Below the pieces are notes generated by a model. It was not told the origin of the DNA and made no database searches. It saw only the letters and a list, made by a program, of their open reading frames with translations. A stretch of DNA of 33,473 nt from Gemmataceae bacterium (GTDB lineage Bacteria > Planctomycetota > Planctomycetia > Gemmatales > Gemmataceae), in NCBI GenBank assembly GCA_025055215.1, contig JANWYO010000198.1, positions 1 through 33,473 of the forward strand. The letters are read 5' to 3'. Shown piece by piece: positions 12,871 through 30,581 of the stretch (position 1 is its first letter; every line of letters starts with the position of its first letter). A program made the position numbers and the translations under genes.

Positions 12871-13376
12871 GGGAACCCTTTCGTAAGGCAGAGACTTAAA
12901 CCGTCAACGGACCCTCAACGTTGCTACCCTTCATCCGCGTTCTGGGTTTCACAAAATACCCGCAAGCGGAGGGTTCACGCAACGGCAGGTGGCCGTGGCG
13001 AAGCTAGCCGCCGCCCGGAGTCATGGTCAGGAATGGAGCAAGTGAGCAGTATTGGACCAGCGCTGGTCCGCCACGAGCCGTTTATCCGGGCCGCCCCTTG
13101 GCGGAGGCTGGACGGCCTGATGCGTCACAACCAGTTGCCCATGCGATAGTTGCGATTTGTGGGCCCCAGGTTGGCCGAGCCAACTCCGTTTGGCACGCAA
13201 TTCGCATCCTCACTAGCTGACTTTCGACTCGCGACTTTGAGGGAGCCGGAGGCCTTGAACTCCCTCATCGTCGCGAGTTTTTTTGCGCTGATGGCGGAAG
13301 CGAGCTTGTCCTGTTGGGACGGAAGGATACATTGGTGGGGGCCATGAGCCCCGGCCTTTCGACCAAGGATGGTGCA
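12871..13376. other. Divergent intergenic region containing an orphan terminator
   Basis: About 500 bp between the divergent starts at 12870 and 13377. The main structure is the intrinsic-terminator-like hairpin at 13227-13284. No known riboswitch core could be recognised by eye. The region may hold a small RNA or a long leader. Confidence 0.45.
13227..13284 (+). terminator. Orphan intrinsic terminator / possible attenuator upstream of the deacetylase gene
   Basis: ACTCGCGA (13227-13234) pairs with TCGCGAGT (13271-13278), and inside it GAGGGAG (13239-13245) pairs with CTCCCTC (13260-13266). Seven consecutive T follow the outer stem (13278-13284). The T-run gives plus-strand polarity, yet no plus-strand gene precedes it within 1.5 kb. 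The next start codon is 92 nt downstream. Confidence 0.7.
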
Positions 13377-14225
13377 ATGCTGAATGCGTTTACCGTCGAT
13401 GTGGAGGATTATTTTCAGGTCTCGGCATTCGAGCGCGTGGTTTCTCGACGAGATTGGGACCTTTACCCGAGCCGGGTGGTAGCCAACACCCGAAGACTTC
13501 TCCATCTGTTGGAGCGATTTGACGTTCGGGCGACGTTCTTCGTGCTCGGCTGGGTAGCGGCTCGGTTTCCGGACTTAGTCCGCGAGATTGCCCGGTGTGG
13601 TCATGAAATCGGCTGCCATAGCTACTGGCATCGATTGGTCTATACGCTGACGCCCGAAGAATTTGCCGATGACCTCCGCCAAGCGAAAGGGGCGCTGGAA
13701 GATGCCATCGGCGCGCCGGTCACGTCGTATCGTGCTCCGAGTTATTCGATCACTCGGCGATCGCTTTGGGCGCTTGACATTCTCGCCGCCGAAGGTTTTA
13801 CCTACGATTCGAGCGTTTTCCCGATTTGCCACGACCGCTACGGGATACCCGACGCGAATCCGTTGCCGCACCGGTACACGGGTTCGCATGGGTCCATTTG
13901 GGAGTTCCCTCCATCGGTGATTCGTTTGGGACGGTTGAACGTTCCGGTCGGCGGGGGTGGCTATTTCCGCCTCCTTCCCGCTTGGTGGACGGAACGGGGT
14001 GTGGCGTGGCTCAACGCCCAAGGGCGGCCCTTTCTCTTTTACATCCATCCGTGGGAGATTGACCCGCAGCAGCCACGCTTGCCCGGCACCCGCTGGAAGT
14101 GGCGGCACTATGTCAATCTCGCAACTACTTACGAGAAGCTCGAAATGCTTCTGTCGCGGGTCCGCTTTGGCCCTATGACCGAGGTCTTGAACGACGCGGG
14201 CCGGTGCGTCGCGGTCGCGACGTGA
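13377..14225 (+). CDS. Polysaccharide deacetylase, PEP-CTERM/exosortase-locus (XrtA) type with DUF3473 C-terminal region
   Basis: NodB-fold carbohydrate esterase (CE4) removing N- or O-acetyl groups from an exported glycan. The ATG at 13377 gives 282 residues starting MLNAFTVDVEDYFQVSAFE, the standard opening of this subfamily, with AAGGA 8 nt upstream; an in-frame ATG at 13344 is the alternative. Catalytic and metal positions are visible: the Asp/Glu in VDVEDYF (7-13), H81 and H85 in CHSYWH, R119 in YRAPSYSIT, and the His of IHPWEID near residue 225. The C-terminal part with the FPPSVIRLGRLNVPVGGGGYFRL-type segment is DUF3473. Homologues usually sit in exosortase-linked exopolysaccharide clusters. 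Here it stands alone, though glycosyltransferases lie 4-7 kb away. No signal peptide, so it may act at the cytoplasmic face. Confidence 0.9.
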   Translation: MLNAFTVDVEDYFQVSAFERVVSRRDWDLYPSRVVANTRRLLHLLERFDVRATFFVLGWVAARFPDLVREIARCGHEIGCHSYWHRLVYTLTPEEFADDLRQAKGALEDAIGAPVTSYRAPSYSITRRSLWALDILAAEGFTYDSSVFPICHDRYGIPDANPLPHRYTGSHGSIWEFPPSVIRLGRLNVPVGGGGYFRLLPAWWTERGVAWLNAQGRPFLFYIHPWEIDPQQPRLPGTRWKWRHYVNLATTYEKLEMLLSRVRFGPMTEVLNDAGRCVAVAT

Positions 14226-14388: not shown

Positions 14389-16977
14389 TCAACCCGCTCG
14401 CTTGAGCGGCGAACGCGCCGCGGTCTTGATCTGGCCGCGCAGGTAGTCCAGGGCCATTTCCAGCTGGCGGTCCTTGAACTCCGGCTTGGGGTCCTTCGGG
14501 GGCAGGTCGCGCCGCGGAATGACCTCGGTTTCCCGCTGATACTCGGCCAAGTCGTCGCGTTCCTTCGGGGTAAGTTTGAGGAGGTAGCCTTTATCGGGGA
14601 TCACACCCCAATCCTCGTCTTCGCTCCCCTTGGTGCTCGACTTGTTGATGTTCTTACCGCTTGGCCGCCAGTACGATGCCGTGGTCAGCTTGATCTCGCC
14701 ACCGGTGGCCTCGAATGGCTGGATGTTCTGCACGCTTCCTTTGCCGTAGCTGCGCTCGCCCATGATGATGGCCCGCTTATGGTCCTGGAGGCAGGCGGCG
14801 ACGATTTCGCTGCCGCTCGCGCTACCACCATTGATCAGGCAGACCATGGGGAAGCTCAGCATGCTCCCTTCGCTCTCGCCCGTGTAGCTGAGTTCCCGGC
14901 CGACTCGCGGACGGATGGAGACGATCAGGCCGTCGTCCACGAACAAGTCGGAGATGCGCACGGCACTGTCGAGCAGTCCGCCGGGATTGAAACGGAGGTC
15001 GAGGACGAATCCCTTCATGCCGGCGCGTTCCAAGTCGGTGACGATTTTCTTGAGGTCGCGGTAGGTGTTCCGCGAGAACTGCGTCAGGCGGGCGTAGCCA
15101 ATCTTGTTGACCGGGTCGATCATATAGTCCCAGCTATCGTCCTCCTTGCGTTGGAAGCCGAGGACTGATTCGACCTCGATGGTGCCCCGGGTGATGCGGA
15201 AATCGAGGACTTCCTTGCCGCCATCCTTCTTTTCCCGCTCGACGGTGATCTCCACGTCGGTCCCGGGCTTGCCGAGGATGCGTTTGACGGCTTCGTTGAG
15301 GGGCAAGCCTTTGGTGTTGATGATTTCGGGCTTGGACAGCGGTCGTCCCTCTTTATCTTCGAAGCAGCGGACTTGGGTGATGATGTCGCCCGCCTTGACA
15401 CCGGCGTGGTACGCCGGGCTTCCCTTAATCGGCGAGACGACCATCAGCATGTCGCGGGTGAGGTCCTTGCGGATTTGGATGCCGATGCCCGTGAACCGAC
15501 CCATCATCTCGCGGCGAACCTGGGCGAGAGTTTCGGGGTCGATGTAGTTGGTGTACGGGTCGAGGTGCGACAACATCTGCTGCAAGGAGATGTCCACGTC
15601 TTTGTTCTTGTCGAGGTCTTCCCGCTTTCCCAGTCGCTCGCGGACGTCCGCCAGGAGGAGGGTCAGCTCTCGCTCACTCATCGACTTGGCGAGCTTGAGA
15701 CGGTCGGCGAACTCGCTGAGAAGCTTGCGCTCTTCGAGGCGACGCAACAGGCCGCGGATGGCCCAATCAACCATCTCGCCCTGGTTCAGTTCCTTGACAT
15801 AGCCTTCGCGTACGAGGTTGATGGCCTGCATGACCTTGGCCGCGTATTCGAGGGCCTCGGAACGCCGCAGCTTCATGCTGGTCAGAATTTGCTCCCGCTC
15901 CTTGGCGAAATCGGCAGCCGACAAGGTGCCATCGACAAGTTTCTGATAGTTTTTCCGCAGCTCCTGATGGGCCTTCAGCTTGGGCATCTGGCTCAGGAGT
16001 CGGCGCCCCTCCTCGACCCATTCGGGCTTCAGGATACCCTGTTGCGACATCCGCGTCAGCTTCGCCAGCCGCTCCTCCACTTTCGGCATGACGGCCGGAT
16101 TATGCGTCAGGCCGAAGTGATTCAAACGCCCGCCGAGAATGATCGGCAGCTGTTCCTTTTCCTCGCGGGTCTTGCCCACGCTGCGGGCCAACGGCGGCAA
16201 CTCCTTGCTCAGGTATTCGCTCAACTCGTCGACGGTGATGATGCCGTCCGGCTCGTAGCCGTCCGTGTCGGCCTTGCCCGACAGGCCGTCGAGGAGCACC
16301 TTGGCGAAGATGCCATGGTCCTTCAGGTCGATCGATTGCGTCAGCCCGTTGGTGGCCAGGAAGACGACTCGGCCGTGGGTGGGCAACTGGTCCTCTTTTT
16401 CCTCGTTATTGCCGAGGAAGGTGCGGTAGAGGTCCATGGGATTCGGCTCGACGACCGCTTCCTTGCCCGCGTCGAAGCCTTTAAAGTTCACGTCGATGAA
16501 GGCGCAAAAGCGCTGGCTCTTGAGCTTTTCCAGTTCATGCTCGATGTCCGCGCTGGCCACGGCATCCTTGTCGCGCCCCTTGAACGTGGAATCGCTGGCC
16601 AAGAAACAAGTGCGCTCCCCTAGCGGGGCGCCTTGGCCAAAGAAGCCGAAGATCACCAGGTCGTCTGAGCGGGCGCTGCCGACGGCCCAGCGGAGTTCCT
16701 TGAGGATGTTGTCGCGCGTGGCTTGGGCACCGACCAGGAGCTTGACCTGCTCCCGCGGGACGTTGAGATGTTCCTTGCGAGCCAGCAGGTCGTGGAGGGC
16801 CCGCGCGTCGGCCTCGGCGTGCTGCCGAGGTTTGATCTGTTCGTCCTTGTACCGATCGATGCCCACGAGCACGACATACGCCGTCGCCGACTTCGGCTCC
16901 GCAGCCTGCGCGGGCACCGCCAAACCGGCCGTCCAGACCCAGCCTCCCAGGAGGCCGACACACATCGCCTTCCACAT
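14389..16977 (-). CDS. S41 (C-terminal processing) protease with PDZ domain and N-terminal degenerate caspase-like domain
   Basis: An 862-residue exported fusion. Residues 1-26 are a signal peptide. Residues 33-290 match a C14 caspase/metacaspase-like domain: YVVLVGIDRYKD (34-45), AEADARALHDLL (54-65), SDDLVIFGFFGQG (104-116), CAFIDVNFKG (158-167) and a late EF-hand-like DGIITVDELSEYL. The catalytic His of SGHG is Gln115 and the Cys of DACHSG is Asn164, so this part should be proteolytically dead. A charged helical linker (about 295-465) leads to a PDZ domain (FTGIGIQI...VKAGDIITQV, about 495-585). The S41 domain follows, with GFVLDLRFNPGG and an intact serine-lysine dyad: Ser721 in NGGSASGSE, Lys746 in SYGKGSVQ and Gln750 four residues later. 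S41 proteases trim or degrade exported proteins; the caspase-like part may be a binding module. GAGAGG precedes the ATG. Confidence 0.92.
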   Translation of the reverse strand: MWKAMCVGLLGGWVWTAGLAVPAQAAEPKSATAYVVLVGIDRYKDEQIKPRQHAEADARALHDLLARKEHLNVPREQVKLLVGAQATRDNILKELRWAVGSARSDDLVIFGFFGQGAPLGERTCFLASDSTFKGRDKDAVASADIEHELEKLKSQRFCAFIDVNFKGFDAGKEAVVEPNPMDLYRTFLGNNEEKEDQLPTHGRVVFLATNGLTQSIDLKDHGIFAKVLLDGLSGKADTDGYEPDGIITVDELSEYLSKELPPLARSVGKTREEKEQLPIILGGRLNHFGLTHNPAVMPKVEERLAKLTRMSQQGILKPEWVEEGRRLLSQMPKLKAHQELRKNYQKLVDGTLSAADFAKEREQILTSMKLRRSEALEYAAKVMQAINLVREGYVKELNQGEMVDWAIRGLLRRLEERKLLSEFADRLKLAKSMSERELTLLLADVRERLGKREDLDKNKDVDISLQQMLSHLDPYTNYIDPETLAQVRREMMGRFTGIGIQIRKDLTRDMLMVVSPIKGSPAYHAGVKAGDIITQVRCFEDKEGRPLSKPEIINTKGLPLNEAVKRILGKPGTDVEITVEREKKDGGKEVLDFRITRGTIEVESVLGFQRKEDDSWDYMIDPVNKIGYARLTQFSRNTYRDLKKIVTDLERAGMKGFVLDLRFNPGGLLDSAVRISDLFVDDGLIVSIRPRVGRELSYTGESEGSMLSFPMVCLINGGSASGSEIVAACLQDHKRAIIMGERSYGKGSVQNIQPFEATGGEIKLTTASYWRPSGKNINKSSTKGSEDEDWGVIPDKGYLLKLTPKERDDLAEYQRETEVIPRRDLPPKDPKPEFKDRQLEMALDYLRGQIKTAARSPLKRAG

Positions 16978-18203: not shown

Positions 18204-19463
18204 TCACCAGGCAACCGCCGCCCTTCGCCTTGGTCGGCTTCCCTTCCACGCGCTCACGGCTTCGACGACGCGCCACAACCGTTGGGCAATGTGGTCGGGG
18301 TGGAAGTTCCGCAGCACGTACTCTCGACCTCGCTGGCCCAGACGCTGTCGCCAAGCCTCATCGTTGATGAGTCGTCGCAGGTGAGCGTCGAACTCTTCGG
18401 GCCGGGTGTAGTACAGGCCGGCCCGGCTGGCCCGGCAGTGTTCCACCATGGCCGCGCTATGTCCGTTGACCAGCACCGGTGTCCCGACGCGCAGGCTCTC
18501 CAAGAGCACGATCGAGAAACTCTCAAAGGGCGACGGATGAAGCAGGGCGCGGGCCCGCGCCATCAGGGCGCATTTGACCGGCTCGCTGACAAAGCCCAGA
18601 TACACGACGTCGGGATGTCGCGGCAGCGGGAGAGGTCCCTTGCCGATGAGAACGAGCCTCAGCGAGGACGGGTGGCGGCGCTTGAATGCCAGAAACTGAT
18701 CGAGCAGTTCGGGGAGGCCCTTGGCCGGCTCGATCCGCCCCGCGTACAGCACGAACACGTCGGGCGTTGCCGCCGGCGGCGGACCAGCCGGCGGCGGTTC
18801 GGGAATTCCCATGCCCACCACCCAGCCGGCGCCGCGGTACGCGTGCATTTCTCGCGCCAGGCACCGCTCCGCCTCGGTCAGAAAAATGGCGTGCTTCACG
18901 TGAGCGAAGACGTCGCCGACAAGCGGGAGATGCGCCTCCGGCTCGTCATGCAGTGTCGGACAAAGCACCGTCCGTTCCGCCGGGACTTGCCGGATGCCGA
19001 AACAGGTCGTCGGATACAAGTATGTGCAAAACAGAAACACATCGAAGCGATGTCGGTGCTGGCCCAGAAATTTGAGGAGGTCCGGCGGCCACGGCCCCTG
19101 GGCGCGGATCAATTCCTCCTGCACACTTCGGGGAGCTTGGGCCAATCGGTCCACGAGTTGGCGCTTGTAGTGGGGGCAACGGGCAAATTGCATCAGGTCA
19201 ACCGGGCCAAACACGTGCCCATGCAACTCTGCCCAACGTGGACCACGCTCCTCTGACACGCGAAAACGATGAACCAGGACAGGGCCATCACGGCTGGTTC
19301 CGGCGGGGAACCAGTTGCGCCAGGTCACGTGATCACGGGCGCAAGTCGTCAGGACCTCAACGTCGGCATCGTGCGCCAGGGCGTGGGCGTATACTCGAGC
19401 GAGTGCCTCCGAGCCACCCAGCACGTCTGGGCCATACCGCTGCACCACGATCGCAATCCTCAT
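18204..19463 (-). CDS. Glycosyltransferase family 4 (GT-B)
   Basis: A 419-residue retaining GT-B glycosyltransferase. The N-terminal Rossmann domain starts MRIAIVVQRYGPDVLGGSEALARVYA, with the Gly-rich acceptor loop. The C-terminal GT4 domain starts VFVLYAGRIEPAKGLPELLDQF and has SPFESFSIVLLESL, the E-x7-E donor-sugar motif. It transfers a sugar from an activated donor onto a growing surface glycan; donor and acceptor cannot be told from sequence. It is the last gene of a minus-strand run: 21 bp separate its start from the stop of the next GT4 gene, so the two are probably co-transcribed. A basic tail (KGSRPRRRAAVAW) ends the protein. Confidence 0.92.
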   Translation of the reverse strand: MRIAIVVQRYGPDVLGGSEALARVYAHALAHDADVEVLTTCARDHVTWRNWFPAGTSRDGPVLVHRFRVSEERGPRWAELHGHVFGPVDLMQFARCPHYKRQLVDRLAQAPRSVQEELIRAQGPWPPDLLKFLGQHRHRFDVFLFCTYLYPTTCFGIRQVPAERTVLCPTLHDEPEAHLPLVGDVFAHVKHAIFLTEAERCLAREMHAYRGAGWVVGMGIPEPPPAGPPPAATPDVFVLYAGRIEPAKGLPELLDQFLAFKRRHPSSLRLVLIGKGPLPLPRHPDVVYLGFVSEPVKCALMARARALLHPSPFESFSIVLLESLRVGTPVLVNGHSAAMVEHCRASRAGLYYTRPEEFDAHLRRLINDEAWRQRLGQRGREYVLRNFHPDHIAQRLWRVVEAVSAWKGSRPRRRAAVAW

Positions 19464-19484
19464 GGCCCGCCTCCGAGCGATAAC

Positions 19485-20636
19485 TCAAATGGCCGAGGCT
19501 GCCATCGATCGGCCGGGGTGTCTGGCCACGGCTCGGACGGGGGTCAATTGCAATTCGTCCCAAACCGCCATGAAGCGTTCGGCGATCCGGTCCGGCCGAA
19601 ACTCGCATTCATATCGCCATCGTTGCCAATCGATCAGGAGTTGGCGAATGGCACCGGCGGTGCAAACCGCCCTCAGCCCCTCGGCCAATAGCGCCGGTTC
19701 CGCGCTGTCCCAGACGAGGCCGGTGGGGCCGAGTGTTTCCCGAACAGCACCCGCGGCCTGGGCGACGACGGGCACCCCGAAGCGCATCGCCTCGACCAGC
19801 GGGACGCCGAATCCTTCGTGCTCGCTGGTGCACAAGAAGGCGTGGGCCTTGGCATAGAAAGTCCGCAGTTGACGGGGTGAGACGCTGCCGTGAAATCGGA
19901 CCGCATTTTCAAGTCCGAGGTTGCTTACTTGGCGGCGCAGCTCGGCGACGTAGTCGCCCAGCTGCGGGTCGAGTCGACCGACGATGTGCAGCTGGCTGGT
20001 GGCCGCCTGGCGGTGAAAAAGGGCGAATACCCGGAGGAGATGGCGATGGCCCTTATTCGGGGCGACCTTCCCGACGAACACGACGTGGGGACCACCCTGC
20101 AACATGCGCTCCAGCCGCGGGTCAGCGGGCAGGTTCGCCAGCTCTTCGGCGGCGTGAAAGGGGGGCACCACGCGGCAATCCTCCGGGCGGGCGCCCGCCG
20201 CGAGCAGTTCGGCGAAGTTGTGGTGCGAGTCGGCCAACAGCCGGATCGGCCGGTCGCGCAGGAGTCGGCGGGTTTGCCACTCGCCGAATTGACACCCGGC
20301 GGCGTAGCGGGGCTGATAGCGACGGAAGAACCGCGCCGGGGTGACGCTGTGGTAGCGGAGGATGCGGCGATTGCGGCTGTGCTCCCAGAGGTGCTGGCCC
20401 AAGGGCCAGCCCACCGAGTGATGGTAAATGAGCCAATCGCGCCGTGCTTTCAGGAACGGCTCGAATGCCGCGAGCGGTTGGGCCAAGTCGCGCAACCGTC
20501 CGTCGCAGTATTGCGCATAGGCCATCGCCTGCCAACCCCAGCAACGCAGCTGGCGAACCATCCCCAGCGCGTCATGCGTCACGGCGTCGCCAGGGCTCAG
20601 GACCGGCGTCAGGATGTGCACACGCGGCGGGGTCAC
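19485..20636 (-). CDS. Glycosyltransferase family 4 (GT-B)
   Basis: A 383-residue GT-B glycosyltransferase. The N-terminal domain opens VHILTPVLSPGDAVTHDALGM. The GT4 donor-binding domain has VVFVGKVAPNKGHRHLLRVF and then TSEHEGFGVPLVEAMRFGVPVVA, a complete E-x7-E motif with the usual EGFGxPxxEA sequence. The two GT4 proteins in this run are clearly different, suggesting successive transfer steps. Its ATG overlaps the end of the upstream methyltransferase gene by 4 bp (20633-20636), which indicates translational coupling. Conserved family assignment is firm; specificity is unknown. Confidence 0.93.
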   Translation of the reverse strand: MTPPRVHILTPVLSPGDAVTHDALGMVRQLRCWGWQAMAYAQYCDGRLRDLAQPLAAFEPFLKARRDWLIYHHSVGWPLGQHLWEHSRNRRILRYHSVTPARFFRRYQPRYAAGCQFGEWQTRRLLRDRPIRLLADSHHNFAELLAAGARPEDCRVVPPFHAAEELANLPADPRLERMLQGGPHVVFVGKVAPNKGHRHLLRVFALFHRQAATSQLHIVGRLDPQLGDYVAELRRQVSNLGLENAVRFHGSVSPRQLRTFYAKAHAFLCTSEHEGFGVPLVEAMRFGVPVVAQAAGAVRETLGPTGLVWDSAEPALLAEGLRAVCTAGAIRQLLIDWQRWRYECEFRPDRIAERFMAVWDELQLTPVRAVARHPGRSMAASAI

Positions 20637-21805
20637 TTTCGGCCCACGAGAGCGTAGTCCTGGTAGCGATGCAGCGGTGCCCCGGCATCGACCGTTGTTC
20701 GCACGACCGGCTCGAGGCCGGGGTCAACCGGCGCGCTGTAGACGGCTTCTTCCACCGCGAATCCCTGGCTCTCCATCAAGAACCGCAGCAATTCCGGGTG
20801 GACCGGGCGGACGTGGGTCGGATCGAGGTAGAAATTCCCGTTGGCCTCGGGACAGCACGGATTGACGGTTTCCACGACCAGGACCCCGCCTTTCCGCAAG
20901 GCCCGCCAACAACGCTCGAGCAGGCGGGCGATGCCCGCCGGCGGCAGGTGCTCCACCACCTGGCCGAGGAAAATTCCACCAAGCGACTGCTCCTCTACCC
21001 CGGTCAAATAGGCCTCCCCCTCAGCCTGCACGACCGCCAGACCCAACTCCCGGCAGAACGCCACCATCTCGGCGTTGGAATCAATCCCCTGCACGGGGAT
21101 ACCTTCGCTCGCCAGCAGCTCGACGAACTCGCCGCGCCCGCAGCCGATGTCGAGCACCTTGCCGCGGTCCCGGAACCAGGGCAGGTAGACGCGCTGGCGA
21201 TCGCGGATCTCCTCGCGGGTGCCCCGGAACTGGTTCTCGAACAGGAAATAATCGAAGGGCAGTTCGTGGGTCCCGTTCGGCGAAGGGGCGCCGGCCTCGG
21301 CCTCCGGGCCGAGGCCGCCATGCAGCTTGACGCGCACCCGATAGCTCACGAGGGTGTCACGCACGCGGGACACCTCGCGCCGGAGCCGACCCAGCTCGCT
21401 CTCGGCCCGGCCTTGCTGATCGGCGAAGGCTTCCACGGCGCGTTCCAGTCGACGGACCGTGTCATACAACTCTCCGAGGTTCTGATCGAGCTGCGACAGC
21501 AACTGTGCCGTCTCTCGGACCTGTTCGACCACCACACCGTTGAACTCCACTTGCCGCATCAACACCCAACGCAGGCCCAGCCGAAGAACCCGCTTGGCCC
21601 AGGTCTTCAGCCGGCCCAGCCATGACGGCCCGGCCGGCAGCACCGCCAGTTCGAGCACGTCTTGCCGGTAACTCAGTTCGGATTCATGTCGGTACAAGGT
21701 GTCAAAGTGCAGCGGGGCGTAGCCCAGCGGCACCCGCGTGCGGATGTCGCGCTGGATGTCATGGATGGTCAAGGACGCATTGGCCGTTGGATGGTGCTCA
21801 ATCAT
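20633..21805 (-). CDS. Coiled-coil class I SAM methyltransferase, WbdD-like in architecture
   Basis: A 390-residue protein starting at the ATG at 21805 (an in-frame TTG at 21823 would add six residues). The N-terminal half is helical. After YRQDVLELAVLPAGPSWLGRLKTW comes a heptad-rich segment of about 70 residues (QVRETAQLLSQLDQNLGELYDTVRRLERAV...LRREVSRVRDTL). The C-terminal half is a Rossmann methyltransferase: VLDIGCGRGEFVELLA (motif I), IPVQGIDSNAEMV (motif II), LGGIFLGQVVEHLPPAG and LRKGGVLVVETVNP. The coiled coil plus methyltransferase plan resembles the WbdD type, which caps O-polysaccharide chains and sets their length, though no kinase domain is present. It is translationally coupled to a GT4 gene, which supports a glycan substrate. 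Confidence 0.82.
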   Translation of the reverse strand: MIEHHPTANASLTIHDIQRDIRTRVPLGYAPLHFDTLYRHESELSYRQDVLELAVLPAGPSWLGRLKTWAKRVLRLGLRWVLMRQVEFNGVVVEQVRETAQLLSQLDQNLGELYDTVRRLERAVEAFADQQGRAESELGRLRREVSRVRDTLVSYRVRVKLHGGLGPEAEAGAPSPNGTHELPFDYFLFENQFRGTREEIRDRQRVYLPWFRDRGKVLDIGCGRGEFVELLASEGIPVQGIDSNAEMVAFCRELGLAVVQAEGEAYLTGVEEQSLGGIFLGQVVEHLPPAGIARLLERCWRALRKGGVLVVETVNPCCPEANGNFYLDPTHVRPVHPELLRFLMESQGFAVEEAVYSAPVDPGLEPVVRTTVDAGAPLHRYQDYALVGRK

Positions 21806-21844
21806 GGGGTGGACCCCAAACAATTGGCCGCGAATCGAGAACGA

Positions 21845-22453
21845 TCAACCGGACGCCGTCAAGGCCGCGTCGACGTAATCGCAGACCACGTGGATGAATA
21901 GAAGGTGTGCCTCCTGGATGCGGGCGGTTGATTGGCTGGGGACGATCCATTGGCGTTCCGCCTCGCCGGCCATGACCCCGCCACCTTTGCCCAGCAGGGC
22001 CAGGGTATGCAAACCGACCTCGCGCGCCGCCCGGATCGCCAGCAATACATTCCGCGATTGCCCGCTGGTGCTCAACGCCACCAGCAGGTCTCCCGGGCGC
22101 CCCTGGCCCCGGACCTGACGCGCGAACAGCTCATTGGCGCCATAGTCGTTGCTGATGCAGGTCAGCAGGGAACCATCGGCCGACAACGCCACCGCGGGCA
22201 GGGACCGTCGTTCGGCGGAGTAGCGGCCCACCAGTTCGGTGGCGAAGTGCTGGGCCTCGGCGGCCGAGCCGCCGTTGCCACACGCTAACAGGCGCGAGCC
22301 GCCGAGTATCAACCCGGCAGTCCAGCGGGCCAGTTCGTCGATGGTTTCGCGGCAATTCGCCAAGTCGTCGATCAACTGGCGCCACTCGGCTAAAGCCTTT
22401 TCCGCGAGAAGAGAGCGGCCTGAAGCTGGATGGAAGGAAACCTTGGCAGACAT
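21845..22453 (-). CDS. gmhA: Phosphoheptose isomerase (sedoheptulose-7-phosphate isomerase) GmhA
   Basis: SIS-domain isomerase converting sedoheptulose 7-phosphate to D-glycero-D-manno-heptose 7-phosphate, the first step of ADP- and GDP-heptose synthesis. The ATG at 22453, preceded by AAGGATG, gives 202 residues, near the usual GmhA size. Visible signatures are LLACGNGGSAAEAQHFATEL, ALSADGSLLTCISNDYG, LVALSTSGQSRNVLLA (phosphate-binding SIS loop) and the late QEAHLLFIHVVCDYVD. The gene lies 39 bp upstream of the methyltransferase start in the same direction, so heptose supply and glycan assembly appear linked. No GmhB or HldE/HddA gene is in the window. Confidence 0.93.
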   Translation of the reverse strand: MSAKVSFHPASGRSLLAEKALAEWRQLIDDLANCRETIDELARWTAGLILGGSRLLACGNGGSAAEAQHFATELVGRYSAERRSLPAVALSADGSLLTCISNDYGANELFARQVRGQGRPGDLLVALSTSGQSRNVLLAIRAAREVGLHTLALLGKGGGVMAGEAERQWIVPSQSTARIQEAHLLFIHVVCDYVDAALTASG

Positions 22454-22858
22454 GGGAACATCCTTGCCCTCGAGCAGCCCGTCCGTGGTGCCAAAGGATG
22501 CGGGCGAACCGCGATCGTAGCTTTGGCGGATATTAGCAAGACCGAGCAAACGGGGTCAAGGCCGTTCGCCGTCGCGGTGGACCTGTTGTTTGGGGCGGGT
22601 TGCGCGCTCCAGTCGGCGGTTTTTCTCCACTCCCCGCCGCGCCGATTCGCCGATTCATCGTCTCGCGCTTGGCGAGTAGCGAGCGCGAGACGATAGATCT
22701 CCCTTCGGGCCCAGCACGCGACTCCCCTCCTCGCGCGAGCGCGAACCGATCAATCCCTCGCCCCCGCTGCGCCCTCGCCGCGCCGAAACGTCGAGGACTC
22801 CCCGCCATCGTGGCGGCATCCGGTTAACCTCGGGGCGCGGGAGTTGAGCGTTTCCAGC
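22454..22858. other. Intergenic region between the PLP enzyme gene and gmhA
   Basis: About 400 bp with no supportable gene. The main feature is a stem-loop at 22658-22693 with a perfect 12-bp stem (TCGTCTCGCGCT against AGCGCGAGACGA) and a 12-nt loop. It lies downstream of the PLP enzyme stop and upstream of gmhA, so it may separate the two transcription units. Confidence 0.45.
22658..22693. terminator. 12-bp stem-loop upstream of gmhA
   Basis: Perfect 12-bp stem 22658-22669 / 22682-22693 with a 12-nt loop and no T-run. It is 166 nt downstream of the PLP enzyme stop on the minus strand. Confidence 0.35.
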
Positions 22859-26853: not shown

Positions 26854-28065
26854 ATGCGGCTGATCCACACCGCGGACTGGCACTTGTGCGATCGGTTGGG
26901 TCGCATTGACCGCACCGAGGATCTGAAGGTTCGGGTCGAACGGGTGGCCGAGCTGTGCCGCCAATACGAAGCCGACCTCCTGCTTATTGCCGGCGACCTC
27001 TTTTCGGAGCAGGCAAGCGTGGACCAGATGACCGACGCTTTACGGCACATGCAGGAGGTGTTTGCGTCGTTCCTGCAAGGTGGGGGCACCATCGTGGCCA
27101 TTGCCGGCAACCACGACCACGAGGGGCGCATCGAGCTGCTGCGGGCGGGGATGTCGCTGGCGGCGCCGCCGGCCGCCGGCGGCCGCCTGGCCGCCGGCCG
27201 CCTCCACCTCCTCAACCAGCCCTTCTTCGGTACCTACACTTCAGCCGCCGGTGACACCATCCAGCTCGTCGCCATTCCCTATCCCGCGCTCCGCCACTTC
27301 AACCCCGCGCCGACGGCCTACCTCACCAGAACGGAAGAGCACCAAATGCTGAGCCAAAGTGTCACAACCTGGCTTACCAGCCTGCGGCAGCAGGCCGAGT
27401 TCGACCCCAAATTGCCGACCGTGCTCACCGCGCACCTGCACGTGCGTGGCTCAGCTGTTCACCGTCTCTACCGGCTCGACGAAAGCGACGACATCATCTT
27501 TGAGCCAAACGTCTTCATGAATGGCTGGACCTATGTCGCCTTGGGCCATGTCCACAAGCCACAGACCATCGGAGGCCGAGAGCACGTCCGCTACGCGGGC
27601 AGTCTCGATCGGCTCGACTTCGGCGAGACCCACAACAATCATGGTGTAGTCCTGGCGGAAATTGGCCCCGGGGGACTGGTGGGCACACCGCGGGTATTGA
27701 CGTTGCCCGCCACCCCGTTTCACGACGTCCAACTTGACGATCCCGCCAACCAGCTGGCCACCCTGATGGATCGCTTTTCCGATCGGGACCAAGCGATTGT
27801 CCGGGCGACGGTTCGGCCGGCGAGCGTTGGTCCCAGCCGGGACGAAGTCATGCGCGCCCTGCGTGTGACGTTTCCTCGGCTGTACGAGCTGACCTGGGAG
27901 GAACGCCCCGGAGACTCTTTCAACGGAGGCCCCGGCTTCGCGCCGCGAGGCGGGTTCGCGGCCACTGTGCGAGCTTATCTGGCGGAGAAGCTGGGCAATG
28001 ACCCAGACCGCGAGGCCCTCGACGCCCTGTTGGACAGCTTCCTGGCGGAGGAAGAAAACTCGTGA
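26854..28065 (+). CDS. sbcD: SbcD/Mre11-type exonuclease subunit
   Basis: Manganese-dependent DNA nuclease subunit of the SbcCD (Mre11-Rad50-like) complex that opens hairpin and protein-blocked DNA ends. The 403-residue product has all metal and catalytic motifs of calcineurin-type phosphoesterases: HTADWHL (5-11, D8 and H10), IAGDLF (45-50, D48), AGNHDHEGR (85-92), TAHLHVRGS (192-200) and GHVHKP (231-236). The ATG at 26854 has GAGGG 7-8 nt upstream. Residues 103-116 are an Ala/Gly/Pro-rich loop encoded by a GC palindrome. The C-terminal capping domain ends EALDALLDSFLAEEENS. The stop overlaps the sbcC start. Confidence 0.96.
   Translation: MRLIHTADWHLCDRLGRIDRTEDLKVRVERVAELCRQYEADLLLIAGDLFSEQASVDQMTDALRHMQEVFASFLQGGGTIVAIAGNHDHEGRIELLRAGMSLAAPPAAGGRLAAGRLHLLNQPFFGTYTSAAGDTIQLVAIPYPALRHFNPAPTAYLTRTEEHQMLSQSVTTWLTSLRQQAEFDPKLPTVLTAHLHVRGSAVHRLYRLDESDDIIFEPNVFMNGWTYVALGHVHKPQTIGGREHVRYAGSLDRLDFGETHNNHGVVLAEIGPGGLVGTPRVLTLPATPFHDVQLDDPANQLATLMDRFSDRDQAIVRATVRPASVGPSRDEVMRALRVTFPRLYELTWEERPGDSFNGGPGFAPRGGFAATVRAYLAEKLGNDPDREALDALLDSFLAEEENS
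27175..27198. repeat. In-gene GC hairpin in sbcD
   Basis: GCCGGCGGCC (27175-27184) pairs perfectly with GGCCGCCGGC (27189-27198) over a GCCT loop, inside sbcD. It encodes part of an Ala/Gly-rich loop (about residues 107-115) after the GNHD motif. Confidence 0.5.
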
Positions 28066-30581
28066 TTATCAAGCGCATTGTTCTGGAGAATTTCCTGACC
28101 TTCGGCTGTCCGGCCACGGAGATTGTCTTCAGCGACGACGAGCCGCTCTGGGTGCTGAGTGGACCCAACGGCATCGGCAAGTCGGCGGTGTTCGACGCCA
28201 TCACCTACGCTCTGTTTGGCTACCATCGCGGTGGCGCTCAAGACGCCGACTGCTTGATCCGCCATGGAGCGAAGGGCTTCTACGTGGCCTTGGAGTTCGA
28301 GCATGACCGCAAGGACTACCGCATCGTCCGCAGGCGAGCGGGCAAGGCCACGCAGCGGCTGGAATGCCGAGTCAACGATCAATGGCGAGCGGTGCGAGGA
28401 GTACAGACGGCCAACGAACTCAAAGCATGGGTGGAGCGGACGCTGGGGCTGGACTACTTCACGTTCACCGCCTCGGTGCTCTTGCGTCAGGGGGAAGCGG
28501 ACGAGTTCTTGACAGCGGACGGGAGCCGTCGCCTGGCGATCCTCAAGAAGATCATTGGCCTGGAGAGGTACGAGGCGCTGTCGCAGCGCGTACATGAGGC
28601 ACGGCGGCAATGGGAGGAAAAGCTGAGGATCCTCCGGGTGCAACGGGACAACACCCAGGCCGTGTCCGACGAAGACATCCAAGCAGCGCACCAGGCGTTG
28701 GCGGAAGTCGAGGCCATTCGGGTCGAGGCTCAGGCGGAGGAGCTGGCAGCGTCGAAGCGCCTCATGCACTCCGAGAGGTGGGAGGAACTTTGTCAGGAAC
28801 GCCAGGGTTTGGAGAGGGAAGTCAAGCAAGCCCAGGCAAGGGAAGCTGAGCTTGGCCATCTCCGTGCCGCTTCGGAGCGACTTCGCTGCCTTCAAGCCTT
28901 GGAGCCGGCAATGCGTCAAACCATCCGTCTCGGCGGTGAGTTGGGTGCCACGCTCTCCGACCTTCTTGCCCAACTGACCGGCGAACAGCAGGAAATGGCC
29001 CGCCAACTCGACCAACTGACAACCTCAGTGAAGCAGACGAGGGACCAGTCAGAACACCAGCAACGGCAGGCGCGGGAGGCGACCGAGGCGGCGGAAAAAC
29101 GGCGCCACGAGCGAGAGCATTTGAAGGTGTTCGCCGCCCAGGCTGAGCACCTGGCGAACCTGCGGCGGGAGTGGGAGGAAATCCCGGCTGATGTGGAAGC
29201 GAGGAGGGCGCGGGCGGAGGCAATGGCCGAAGCCGCCGCCGCCGTTGCCGAGCAGGCTCACGGCCAGAGAGCGGCCCTCGTCGCCCTGGTCGCCGAGGCC
29301 CGTCGGCGACTCGAGGCCTTTCAACGAGTCCAAGCCGGTGTCCCGTGCTCGCTCTGCGGTCAAATCGTTTCCGAAGAGCACGCCCGTAATGAACGCCGTC
29401 GGCTCACCGACGCCCTCCGCGACCTCGAACACCGGCTTACGGAAAGCGAGAACCTGGCGCGGCAGGCAGCAGCCCAGCGAGAGCAAGGGGAAATCGAGTT
29501 ACGAAATCTCGAGCGCCTGTCTCAGAGGAAGCACGAACTCGAGCGAGAGATTGACCAGGTGGAGAAGCTGCTGTCCAGCGCCGGCGTACCGCCCGACGCT
29601 GGACAGGTGCAAAGGGAGTTGGCTGCTCGGGATGCCGAGATTGCACAGTGGCAGGATAAGGCGGCGGCGGCCCAAGCCGCCGCCGCCCAAGCGACCGAGC
29701 AGGTGCGTCTTATCGAACACGAAAGCGCCCGGTTGGCCGAACGTCTCCTCCAGAGCCTCGCCCAAGAGCGTGCCCAACTCGAACAACAAGGCGTGGTGCA
29801 ACGCTTGCATGAATGCGAGCAAGACGCTGTTCGCGCGGACGAAAAAGCCCAACGACTTCGAGAAATCGAACGCGCCATACGGGCCATTCCTCCATCGGCT
29901 CGGATTCCCGCGGCCGAGGCAAAGCGCCACCTCGAGGAGCTGCGGCTAAGGGTCTCGAATGCGGACAAGGACCGGCGTGTCGCCCAAGGCCGAGTCGATG
30001 AGGTGACACGCCGAGCGGCCGAGTACCATCGCGTCGTGCAACAACTGGCGGAGGCGGAGCTTCAGGCCGAGCGGCACCGCAAGCTCGACGAACTTCTTGG
30101 CCGGAATGGCCTGCAACGCGACCTCGTCCGCTCCGCCGAGCGGGAGATCGTCCACTTGGCGAACAATACCGTGTACAAGCTGTCAGACGGAGACTTGTCA
30201 CTTGAACTCGATGGCCGCGTTGATGGCGACGACCGAGCACTCAGCCTCCTGGTTCGGCGGGTCGGCAGTTCCCAGCCCATCCCGGTGGCTTTTCTTTCGG
30301 GGAGCCAAAAGTTCCGCGTGGCCATCGCCCTCGCCTTGGCCATCGGCCGATTTGCATCGGGTCAGGCGCGGCCGTTGGAAAGCGTGATCATCGACGAAGG
30401 CTTCGGCAGCCTCGACCGCGACGGGCTGCGGGCGGCAGCCGACGAACTGAATCGCCTGCGGGGTTACCTGCGCCGCATCGTGCTCGTCTCTCACCAGCAG
30501 GAATTTGCCGAACGCTTCCCCGTGGTCATCCAACTGAAGCCCGGGGAAAACGGCACCATTGCGGAGCAATTCCGCCGTTGA
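28062..30581 (+). CDS. sbcC: SbcC/Rad50-type ATPase subunit
   Basis: ABC-type ATPase partner of SbcD. The GTG at 28062 overlaps the sbcD stop (GTGA), so the two subunits are translationally coupled. The 839-residue protein has Walker A GPNGIGKS (34-41) and FTASVLLRQGEADEFL (Q-loop). Long coiled coils follow on both sides of a zinc hook, C429-S-L-C432 (PCSLCGQ). The return coiled coil leads to the ABC signature FLSGSQKFRVAIALALAI (about 742-760) and Walker B VIIDEGFGSLD (about 773-783), then VLVSHQQEFAERFP with the switch His. The coiled-coil arms are somewhat shorter than in E. coli SbcC (about 1,050 residues in total). Alanine-rich heptads near 29650-29700 are part of the coiled coil. Confidence 0.96.
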   Translation: MIIKRIVLENFLTFGCPATEIVFSDDEPLWVLSGPNGIGKSAVFDAITYALFGYHRGGAQDADCLIRHGAKGFYVALEFEHDRKDYRIVRRRAGKATQRLECRVNDQWRAVRGVQTANELKAWVERTLGLDYFTFTASVLLRQGEADEFLTADGSRRLAILKKIIGLERYEALSQRVHEARRQWEEKLRILRVQRDNTQAVSDEDIQAAHQALAEVEAIRVEAQAEELAASKRLMHSERWEELCQERQGLEREVKQAQAREAELGHLRAASERLRCLQALEPAMRQTIRLGGELGATLSDLLAQLTGEQQEMARQLDQLTTSVKQTRDQSEHQQRQAREATEAAEKRRHEREHLKVFAAQAEHLANLRREWEEIPADVEARRARAEAMAEAAAAVAEQAHGQRAALVALVAEARRRLEAFQRVQAGVPCSLCGQIVSEEHARNERRRLTDALRDLEHRLTESENLARQAAAQREQGEIELRNLERLSQRKHELEREIDQVEKLLSSAGVPPDAGQVQRELAARDAEIAQWQDKAAAAQAAAAQATEQVRLIEHESARLAERLLQSLAQERAQLEQQGVVQRLHECEQDAVRADEKAQRLREIERAIRAIPPSARIPAAEAKRHLEELRLRVSNADKDRRVAQGRVDEVTRRAAEYHRVVQQLAEAELQAERHRKLDELLGRNGLQRDLVRSAEREIVHLANNTVYKLSDGDLSLELDGRVDGDDRALSLLVRRVGSSQPIPVAFLSGSQKFRVAIALALAIGRFASGQARPLESVIIDEGFGSLDRDGLRAAADELNRLRGYLRRIVLVSHQQEFAERFPVVIQLKPGENGTIAEQFRR

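Follow-up and report, generated by a model that had tools for sequence, protein, structure and literature searches.

A gene on the reverse strand of the window (the whole analysed stretch of 33,473 nucleotides, from a Gemmataceae bacterium) encodes a protein of 862 amino acids in which a caspase-fold domain that has lost its catalytic dyad is fused to an S41 C-terminal-processing (CTP) protease (14389..16977). Both kinds of component are already known; a pseudo-orthocaspase joined in cis to a CTP protease would be a new combination. We propose that the dead caspase domain may serve as a built-in, non-catalytic adaptor for the S41 protease. The docking or signalling step of this proposal is inferred by analogy, and we judge the adaptor reading about equally apt to be right or wrong. 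At a less specific level, the caspase domain probably steers or assembles the protease rather than cutting.

Gene layout and the protease part

The ORF comprises 862 codons from an ATG start. Its coordinates and start codon, and the positions of Gln115, Asn164, Ser721, Lys746 and Gln750, were all given correctly in the first-pass annotation. A chimeric ORF or assembly error was ruled out, as the fusion recurs in dozens of genomes. The protein starts with a predicted Sec signal peptide, judged from the sequence (residues 1-26, cleavage between AQA and AE; 16900..16977). A hydrophobic stretch with a mean hydropathy > 1.8 lies ahead of the caspase domain in 76 of the 78 fused homologues; the window's own signal peptide scores 1.6 on the same crude measure. 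The caspase-fold domain (residues 30-295; 16093..16890) is followed by a helical module (residues 296-371; 15865..16092), a CtpB-type N-terminal dimerization region (NDR; residues 372-450; 15628..15864), a PDZ domain (about residues 491-610; 15148..15507), the S41 protease core (residues 621-780; 14638..15117) and a C-terminal region (residues 781-862; 14392..14637). In the AlphaFold2 (AF2) model the latter contains a terminal helix, FKDRQLE, of which the D and the Q are invariant (alignment A1). The full-length AF2 model reached a pTM of 0.75, and its top structural match was the CtpA-LbcA complex.

The protease part was readily recognised by profiles. The S41 core matched PF03572 with 157 bits (E 4e-46) and TIGR00225 (prc family) with 277.2 bits against a cut-off of 218.6, while the NDR exceeded the cut-off of PF22694 (35.3 bits, cut-off 27). 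The PDZ domain was located by PF17820, which was at its cut-off, by PF13180 and by alignment with CtpA of Pseudomonas aeruginosa. The predicted catalytic residues Ser721 (14815..14817), Lys746 (14740..14742) and Gln750 (14728..14730) align with those of CtpA at the same +25/+29 spacing, and in the fused homologues Ser and Lys are each present in 78/78 and Gln in 77/78. The profiles, the CtpA alignment and this conservation bear out the earlier claim that the PDZ and S41 parts are present and keep the three residues. With its triad intact, the S41 protease is active-looking at the level of sequence.

Between the caspase domain and the PDZ domain, the first-pass annotation had described a long charged helical linker. 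The region is not a mere linker: it consists of the conserved module, which AF2 models as helices, and the CTP dimerization region.

A caspase fold without its dyad

When residues 29-299 were scanned alone, PF00656 matched with 31.5 bits against a curated cut-off of 21.4 (E 1.8e-7). The match was missing from the Pfam scan of the full-length protein and appeared only with the domain alone; 42 of 55 homologous domains matched PF00656 at E <= 0.01. Searching the window's genome with PF00656 gave no match, but this very domain was missed as well, so the result does not show that other caspases are lacking. AF2 modelled the domain with 55 homologues at a mean pLDDT of 95.6 and a pTM of 0.93. The top Foldseek matches of this model were the MALT1 paracaspase (E 4e-11) and then metacaspases. 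VIA-align superposed it on Arabidopsis metacaspase 4 (AtMCA4) with a Z of 21.2 (rmsd 2.7, 216 aligned), on MALT1 with 20.5, on caspase-7 and bacterial GSU0716 with 19.7 each, and on chain B of 3h11, the c-FLIP(L) entry, with 19.2. The caspase fold of residues 30-295, on which the whole idea had been staked, was thus predicted by AF2 and recovered by Foldseek and VIA-align against C14 folds, and from profile and predicted structure together we consider the assignment secure.

Distant matches were also obtained to NF047832, an 'EACC1-associated' caspase (55.3 bits, E 5.9e-15), and to a PADLOC caspase model. Such matches could point to an immune or cell-death effector that forms part of a caspase-linked conflict system. 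However, the NF047832 score does not reach the subfamily cut-off of 140 bits, the protein has a signal peptide and has lost its dyad, and the gene is retained in nearly all genomes. Moreover, no caspase-system partner gene was recognised among the window ORFs scanned. We regard an effector role as highly improbable, the least probable of the readings considered here.

In alignments with unfused caspases, Gln115 (16633..16635) takes the place of the His of GHG and Asn164 (16486..16488) that of the Cys of DxC. Gln115 also aligns to the His of SGHG in the solved metacaspase MCA2 of Trypanosoma brucei. In the set of 78 distinct fused homologues, the residue at 115 is Q, R, E, N, S or A; at 164 it is N, H, Q, D, S, A or Y, and in one case C. 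The His-Cys pair is found in 0/78 fused homologues versus 56/61 unfused planctomycete caspase domains; one divergent member (G263, L121) has a His at or beside position 115, depending on the alignment, without the Cys. The alignments therefore agree with the replacement of the catalytic pair that was read from the window's protein, and the absence of the pair throughout extends it to the entire fused set. Whether the Gln and Asn themselves are conserved had been raised as a check, and they are not: both positions vary widely, though never to a His-Cys pair. Ordered by conservation, position 115 is 144th and position 164 is 180th among 264 positions of the fused domains, whereas the two stand 8th and 10th among 222 in the unfused ones.

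The view of an inactive caspase also stood up to a search of the alignment for a relocated dyad. No conserved His/Cys pair was found elsewhere in the domain; C124 and H221 are only partly conserved and both lie off the catalytic positions. We ruled out that the dyad was lost recently or locally, since 78/78 fused homologues lack the pair. From these alignments, both catalytic residues were lost anciently, across the whole fused clade, yet the domain was kept. It has the p20-like fold with replaced dyad of a pseudo-orthocaspase, and not the His-Cys dyad of an active orthocaspase or metacaspase. A second dyad-less group was observed in other planctomycetes (L039, L040, L051, L053 and L062; 5/61 unfused domains). 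It has GYG or GLG for GHG and S, P or G for the Cys, forms one clade (support 85) and is unrelated to the S41 fusion.

A further change, missed by the first-pass annotation, affects residue 113, two positions before the His (Phe113; 16639..16641). This residue is F, I, V, L or M in 76/78 fused domains versus Ala or Ser in 61/61 unfused domains. Counted from the His, it matches Ser156 of MCA2, a small residue lining the S1 pocket, which in MCA2 includes Cys92, Asp95, Ser156 and Asp211 (PMC4357240). The equivalent of Asp211, D162, is retained in 77/78 fused domains, and D57 (76/78), on the same helix, most likely matches Asp95, an assignment made by motif and not by direct alignment. The bulky residue 113 would probably tend to fill the S1 pocket, and its presence in 76/78 counts against a simple role of the old cleft in capturing caspase-type substrates.

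A cleft that is probably filled speaks against ligand binding there and would suit the main rival to the adaptor reading, namely that the dead caspase is a scaffold only, which oligomerizes or anchors the protein and neither senses nor recruits. Caspase domains often pair, and the activity of CTP enzymes depends on their oligomeric state (PMC11021448). Yet the most conserved non-catalytic patch of the domain is an EF-hand-like loop and no evident dimer surface, and we consider a pure scaffold unlikely.

This loop spans residues 237-251 (DTDGYEPDGIITVDE; 16225..16269). The surrounding motif, AD..GYEPDG.VT.DEL (residues 236-252), is near-invariant in the fused proteins. D237, G240, E242, D244, G245 and E251 are each 97-100% conserved in the 78 fused proteins, as are D57, D106 and D162, whereas D237, D244, G245 and E251 reach only ~70-75% in unfused caspases. 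The loop looks like that of an EF-hand lengthened by two or three residues, and in the AF2 model it has a helix on either side. Its conservation and its position between helices would be compatible with a calcium switch, in which the loop binds Ca2+ and toggles the protease as a remnant of metacaspase Ca2+ dependence. The extra residues make the spacing non-canonical, however, and the conservation may be structural; a switch of this kind appears rather improbable to us.

The helical module is conserved too, with the motif EGR.LL.RMPKLK..Q.LR..Y and with R341 in 78/78 fused proteins. An HMM of the module matched all three fusions of a second lineage (E 2e-14 to 2e-19), of which two were themselves rows of the underlying alignment, so that only L121 is an independent hit. 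No convincing match was found in unfused caspases, and the module thus appears specific to the fusion. Attempts to place it in a known family failed: neither SHOCT nor any other known identity could be assigned, since Pfam yielded only a sub-threshold GvpG match, and an origin from WD40-caspase relatives, suggested by similarity to the eye, was unsupported by the HMM search. Column entropy was 1.8-1.9 in the caspase domain, 2.0-2.1 in the rest of the N-terminal half and 1.3 in the S41 core. As read from the alignments, the conserved sites are non-catalytic, above all the EF-hand-like loop and the helical module.

Distribution, origin and gene neighbourhood

We searched a class-wide sample of genomes that were >= 85% complete with a profile of the caspase domain. 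The fusion domain was detected in 52/54 sampled genomes of the window's order, in ORFs of 856-1022 amino acids. It occurred in 49/50 genomes of the window's family, the Gemmataceae, and in 3/4 of a second family of the order. Both negative genomes are draft assemblies, and one of them (G341) has a congener that carries the gene. Divergent full-length fusions were present in all three sampled species of a separate order (3/3), the second lineage. The first-pass annotation had suggested looking for the same domain order in other planctomycetes, and nearly every relative sampled has it. Among named relatives, the closest is a contig of a Gemmataceae MAG, with 61% identity over the full length. 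None of about 60 unfused caspase ORFs examined carried an S41 domain.

Two individual cases deserve a remark. In one genome (G032:C1:539756-542298) the fusion is encoded by two overlapping ORFs, which cover query residues 32-275 and 271-860 and split at the boundary between caspase domain and helical module; the cause may be a frameshift error, or the split may be natural. The fusion gene L066, with 51% identity to that of the window, comes from a contig labelled as a Candidatus Kuenenia stuttgartiensis MAG, which is probably misbinned or mislabelled.

A branch with a support of 98 separates the fused domains of both lineages from the other domains of the caspase tree, and the nearest unfused domains are those of intact-dyad WD40-caspases, with a weak support of 77. 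The S41 tree depended on the treatment of two S41 proteins without a caspase domain that are nested in the fused clade (L211, G017:C526; L212, G317:C197). A single clade of both lineages was not rejected when these paralogues were included (p 0.22), versus a p of 0.038 against it when they were excluded. Secondary loss of the caspase domain is a possible explanation for both. Most searched genomes also encode shorter S41 proteases without a caspase domain.

S41 paralogues without the domain, together with the free drift of positions 115 and 164 among many residues, would be expected if the domain were a vestigial passenger, left behind without function by an old gene fusion. Against this, the fold and many sites are conserved down to ~40% identity within the order and also in the second lineage, and retention in the order is near-universal. 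A mere leftover is very unlikely.

The gene neighbourhood in the window revealed no functional partner for the fusion. The flanking genes encode a polysaccharide deacetylase with DUF3473 (13314-14225, forward strand) and a cluster of two glycosyltransferases, a methyltransferase and a SIS-domain protein (18204-22549, reverse strand), a surface polysaccharide context that is not conserved in relatives. Further along, adjacent genes for a metallophosphoesterase and an AAA/SMC ATPase (26857-30581, forward strand) resemble an SbcD-SbcC pair. In some relatives (L126, L134, L135, L136 and others) a block of a Ser/Thr kinase, an unknown membrane protein and an aminotransferase lies just upstream on the same strand, the kinase and aminotransferase being named from sequence. 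This block occurs in a subset of genomes and is missing from the window, and a conserved operon was ruled out.

Proposed role and comparison with known systems

CTP proteases require activation. In the adaptor reading, the pseudo-caspase would use a surface outside the old cleft to bind a partner, substrate or ion; the best candidate site is the EF-hand-like loop, and binding there may depend on Ca2+. The helical module would transmit this binding to the adjoining dimerization region and the PDZ domain, by which the S41 site would be positioned and supplied with substrate. The job proposed is that of the separate adaptors LbcA, for CtpA, and NlpI, for Prc. In P. aeruginosa, LbcA attaches to the CtpA NDR by its N-terminal adaptor domain, moves the PDZ domain and realigns the catalytic residues, and in the published model it already has substrate bound (PMC11021448). 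Because the helical module directly precedes the NDR, the region where LbcA docks on CtpA, a built-in adaptor is the simplest reading. The near-universal retention of the domain (52/54) and its conserved non-catalytic sites also count for this role, whereas the paralogues L211 and L212 count against it, as the domain is dispensable in them. A fuller picture is tentative: a core envelope protease of the whole order, its activity gated in cis by a caspase domain that was inactivated long ago and has a filled cleft and a conserved EF-hand-like loop. We would sooner expect this picture to need revision than to hold in full.

Most bacterial pseudo-caspases described so far come from cyanobacteria and rhizobia, and there are few clues to what they do. 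In the fusion, a pseudo-caspase adjoins a protease of a class whose structures, assays and adaptors are known, and this arrangement is kept across a family and an order that contain cultured planctomycetes. The known protease class and the cultured relatives make the role of a dead bacterial caspase directly testable. Control by a dead protease domain in cis may be a second mode of CTP protease control; if so, it would be a case of a bacterial pseudo-caspase regulating an unrelated protease class.

The closest known proteases are CtpA of P. aeruginosa, CtpB of Bacillus subtilis and Prc of Escherichia coli (MEROPS S41A), which share the NDR, the PDZ domain, the S41 core, the identical Ser-Lys-Gln spacing and export. 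Identity to CtpA and CtpB is ~30-33% over the protease part. The solved structures of these proteases are not known to include a caspase-fold domain; CtpA and Prc have their adaptors as separate proteins, whereas the window protein has a dead caspase in cis.

Bacterial pseudo-orthocaspases, such as SyOC of Synechocystis, likewise combine a p20-like fold with replacement of both catalytic residues (PMC6426788, PMC7889975). Those known are mostly Tyr-Ser types from cyanobacteria and alphaproteobacteria, whereas the fused domains have Q/R/E/N/S with N/Q/H/D/S/A. Unlike them, the fused domain also has its S1 residue replaced and a live-looking protease partner. A survey from 2012 found that only 64% of planctomycete caspases retain the dyad, and mentioned neither S41 nor PDZ (PMC3501461); the 2019 survey of pseudo-orthocaspases mentioned neither these domains nor planctomycetes (PMC6426788). 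We found no description of a caspase-PDZ-S41 architecture in the open-licence PMC papers searched; it may well be listed automatically in domain databases.

Planctomycete WD40-repeat caspases (L175), the nearest unfused domains, share the export-type N-terminus but have an intact GHG...DAC dyad and WD40 repeats in place of S41. In animals, the pseudo-caspase c-FLIP(L) activates caspase-8 (PDB 3h11). Its fold is similar, and by analogy it may work alike, as a dead caspase that modulates a live protease. The partner of c-FLIP(L), however, is another caspase in trans, whereas here it would be an unrelated serine protease in cis.
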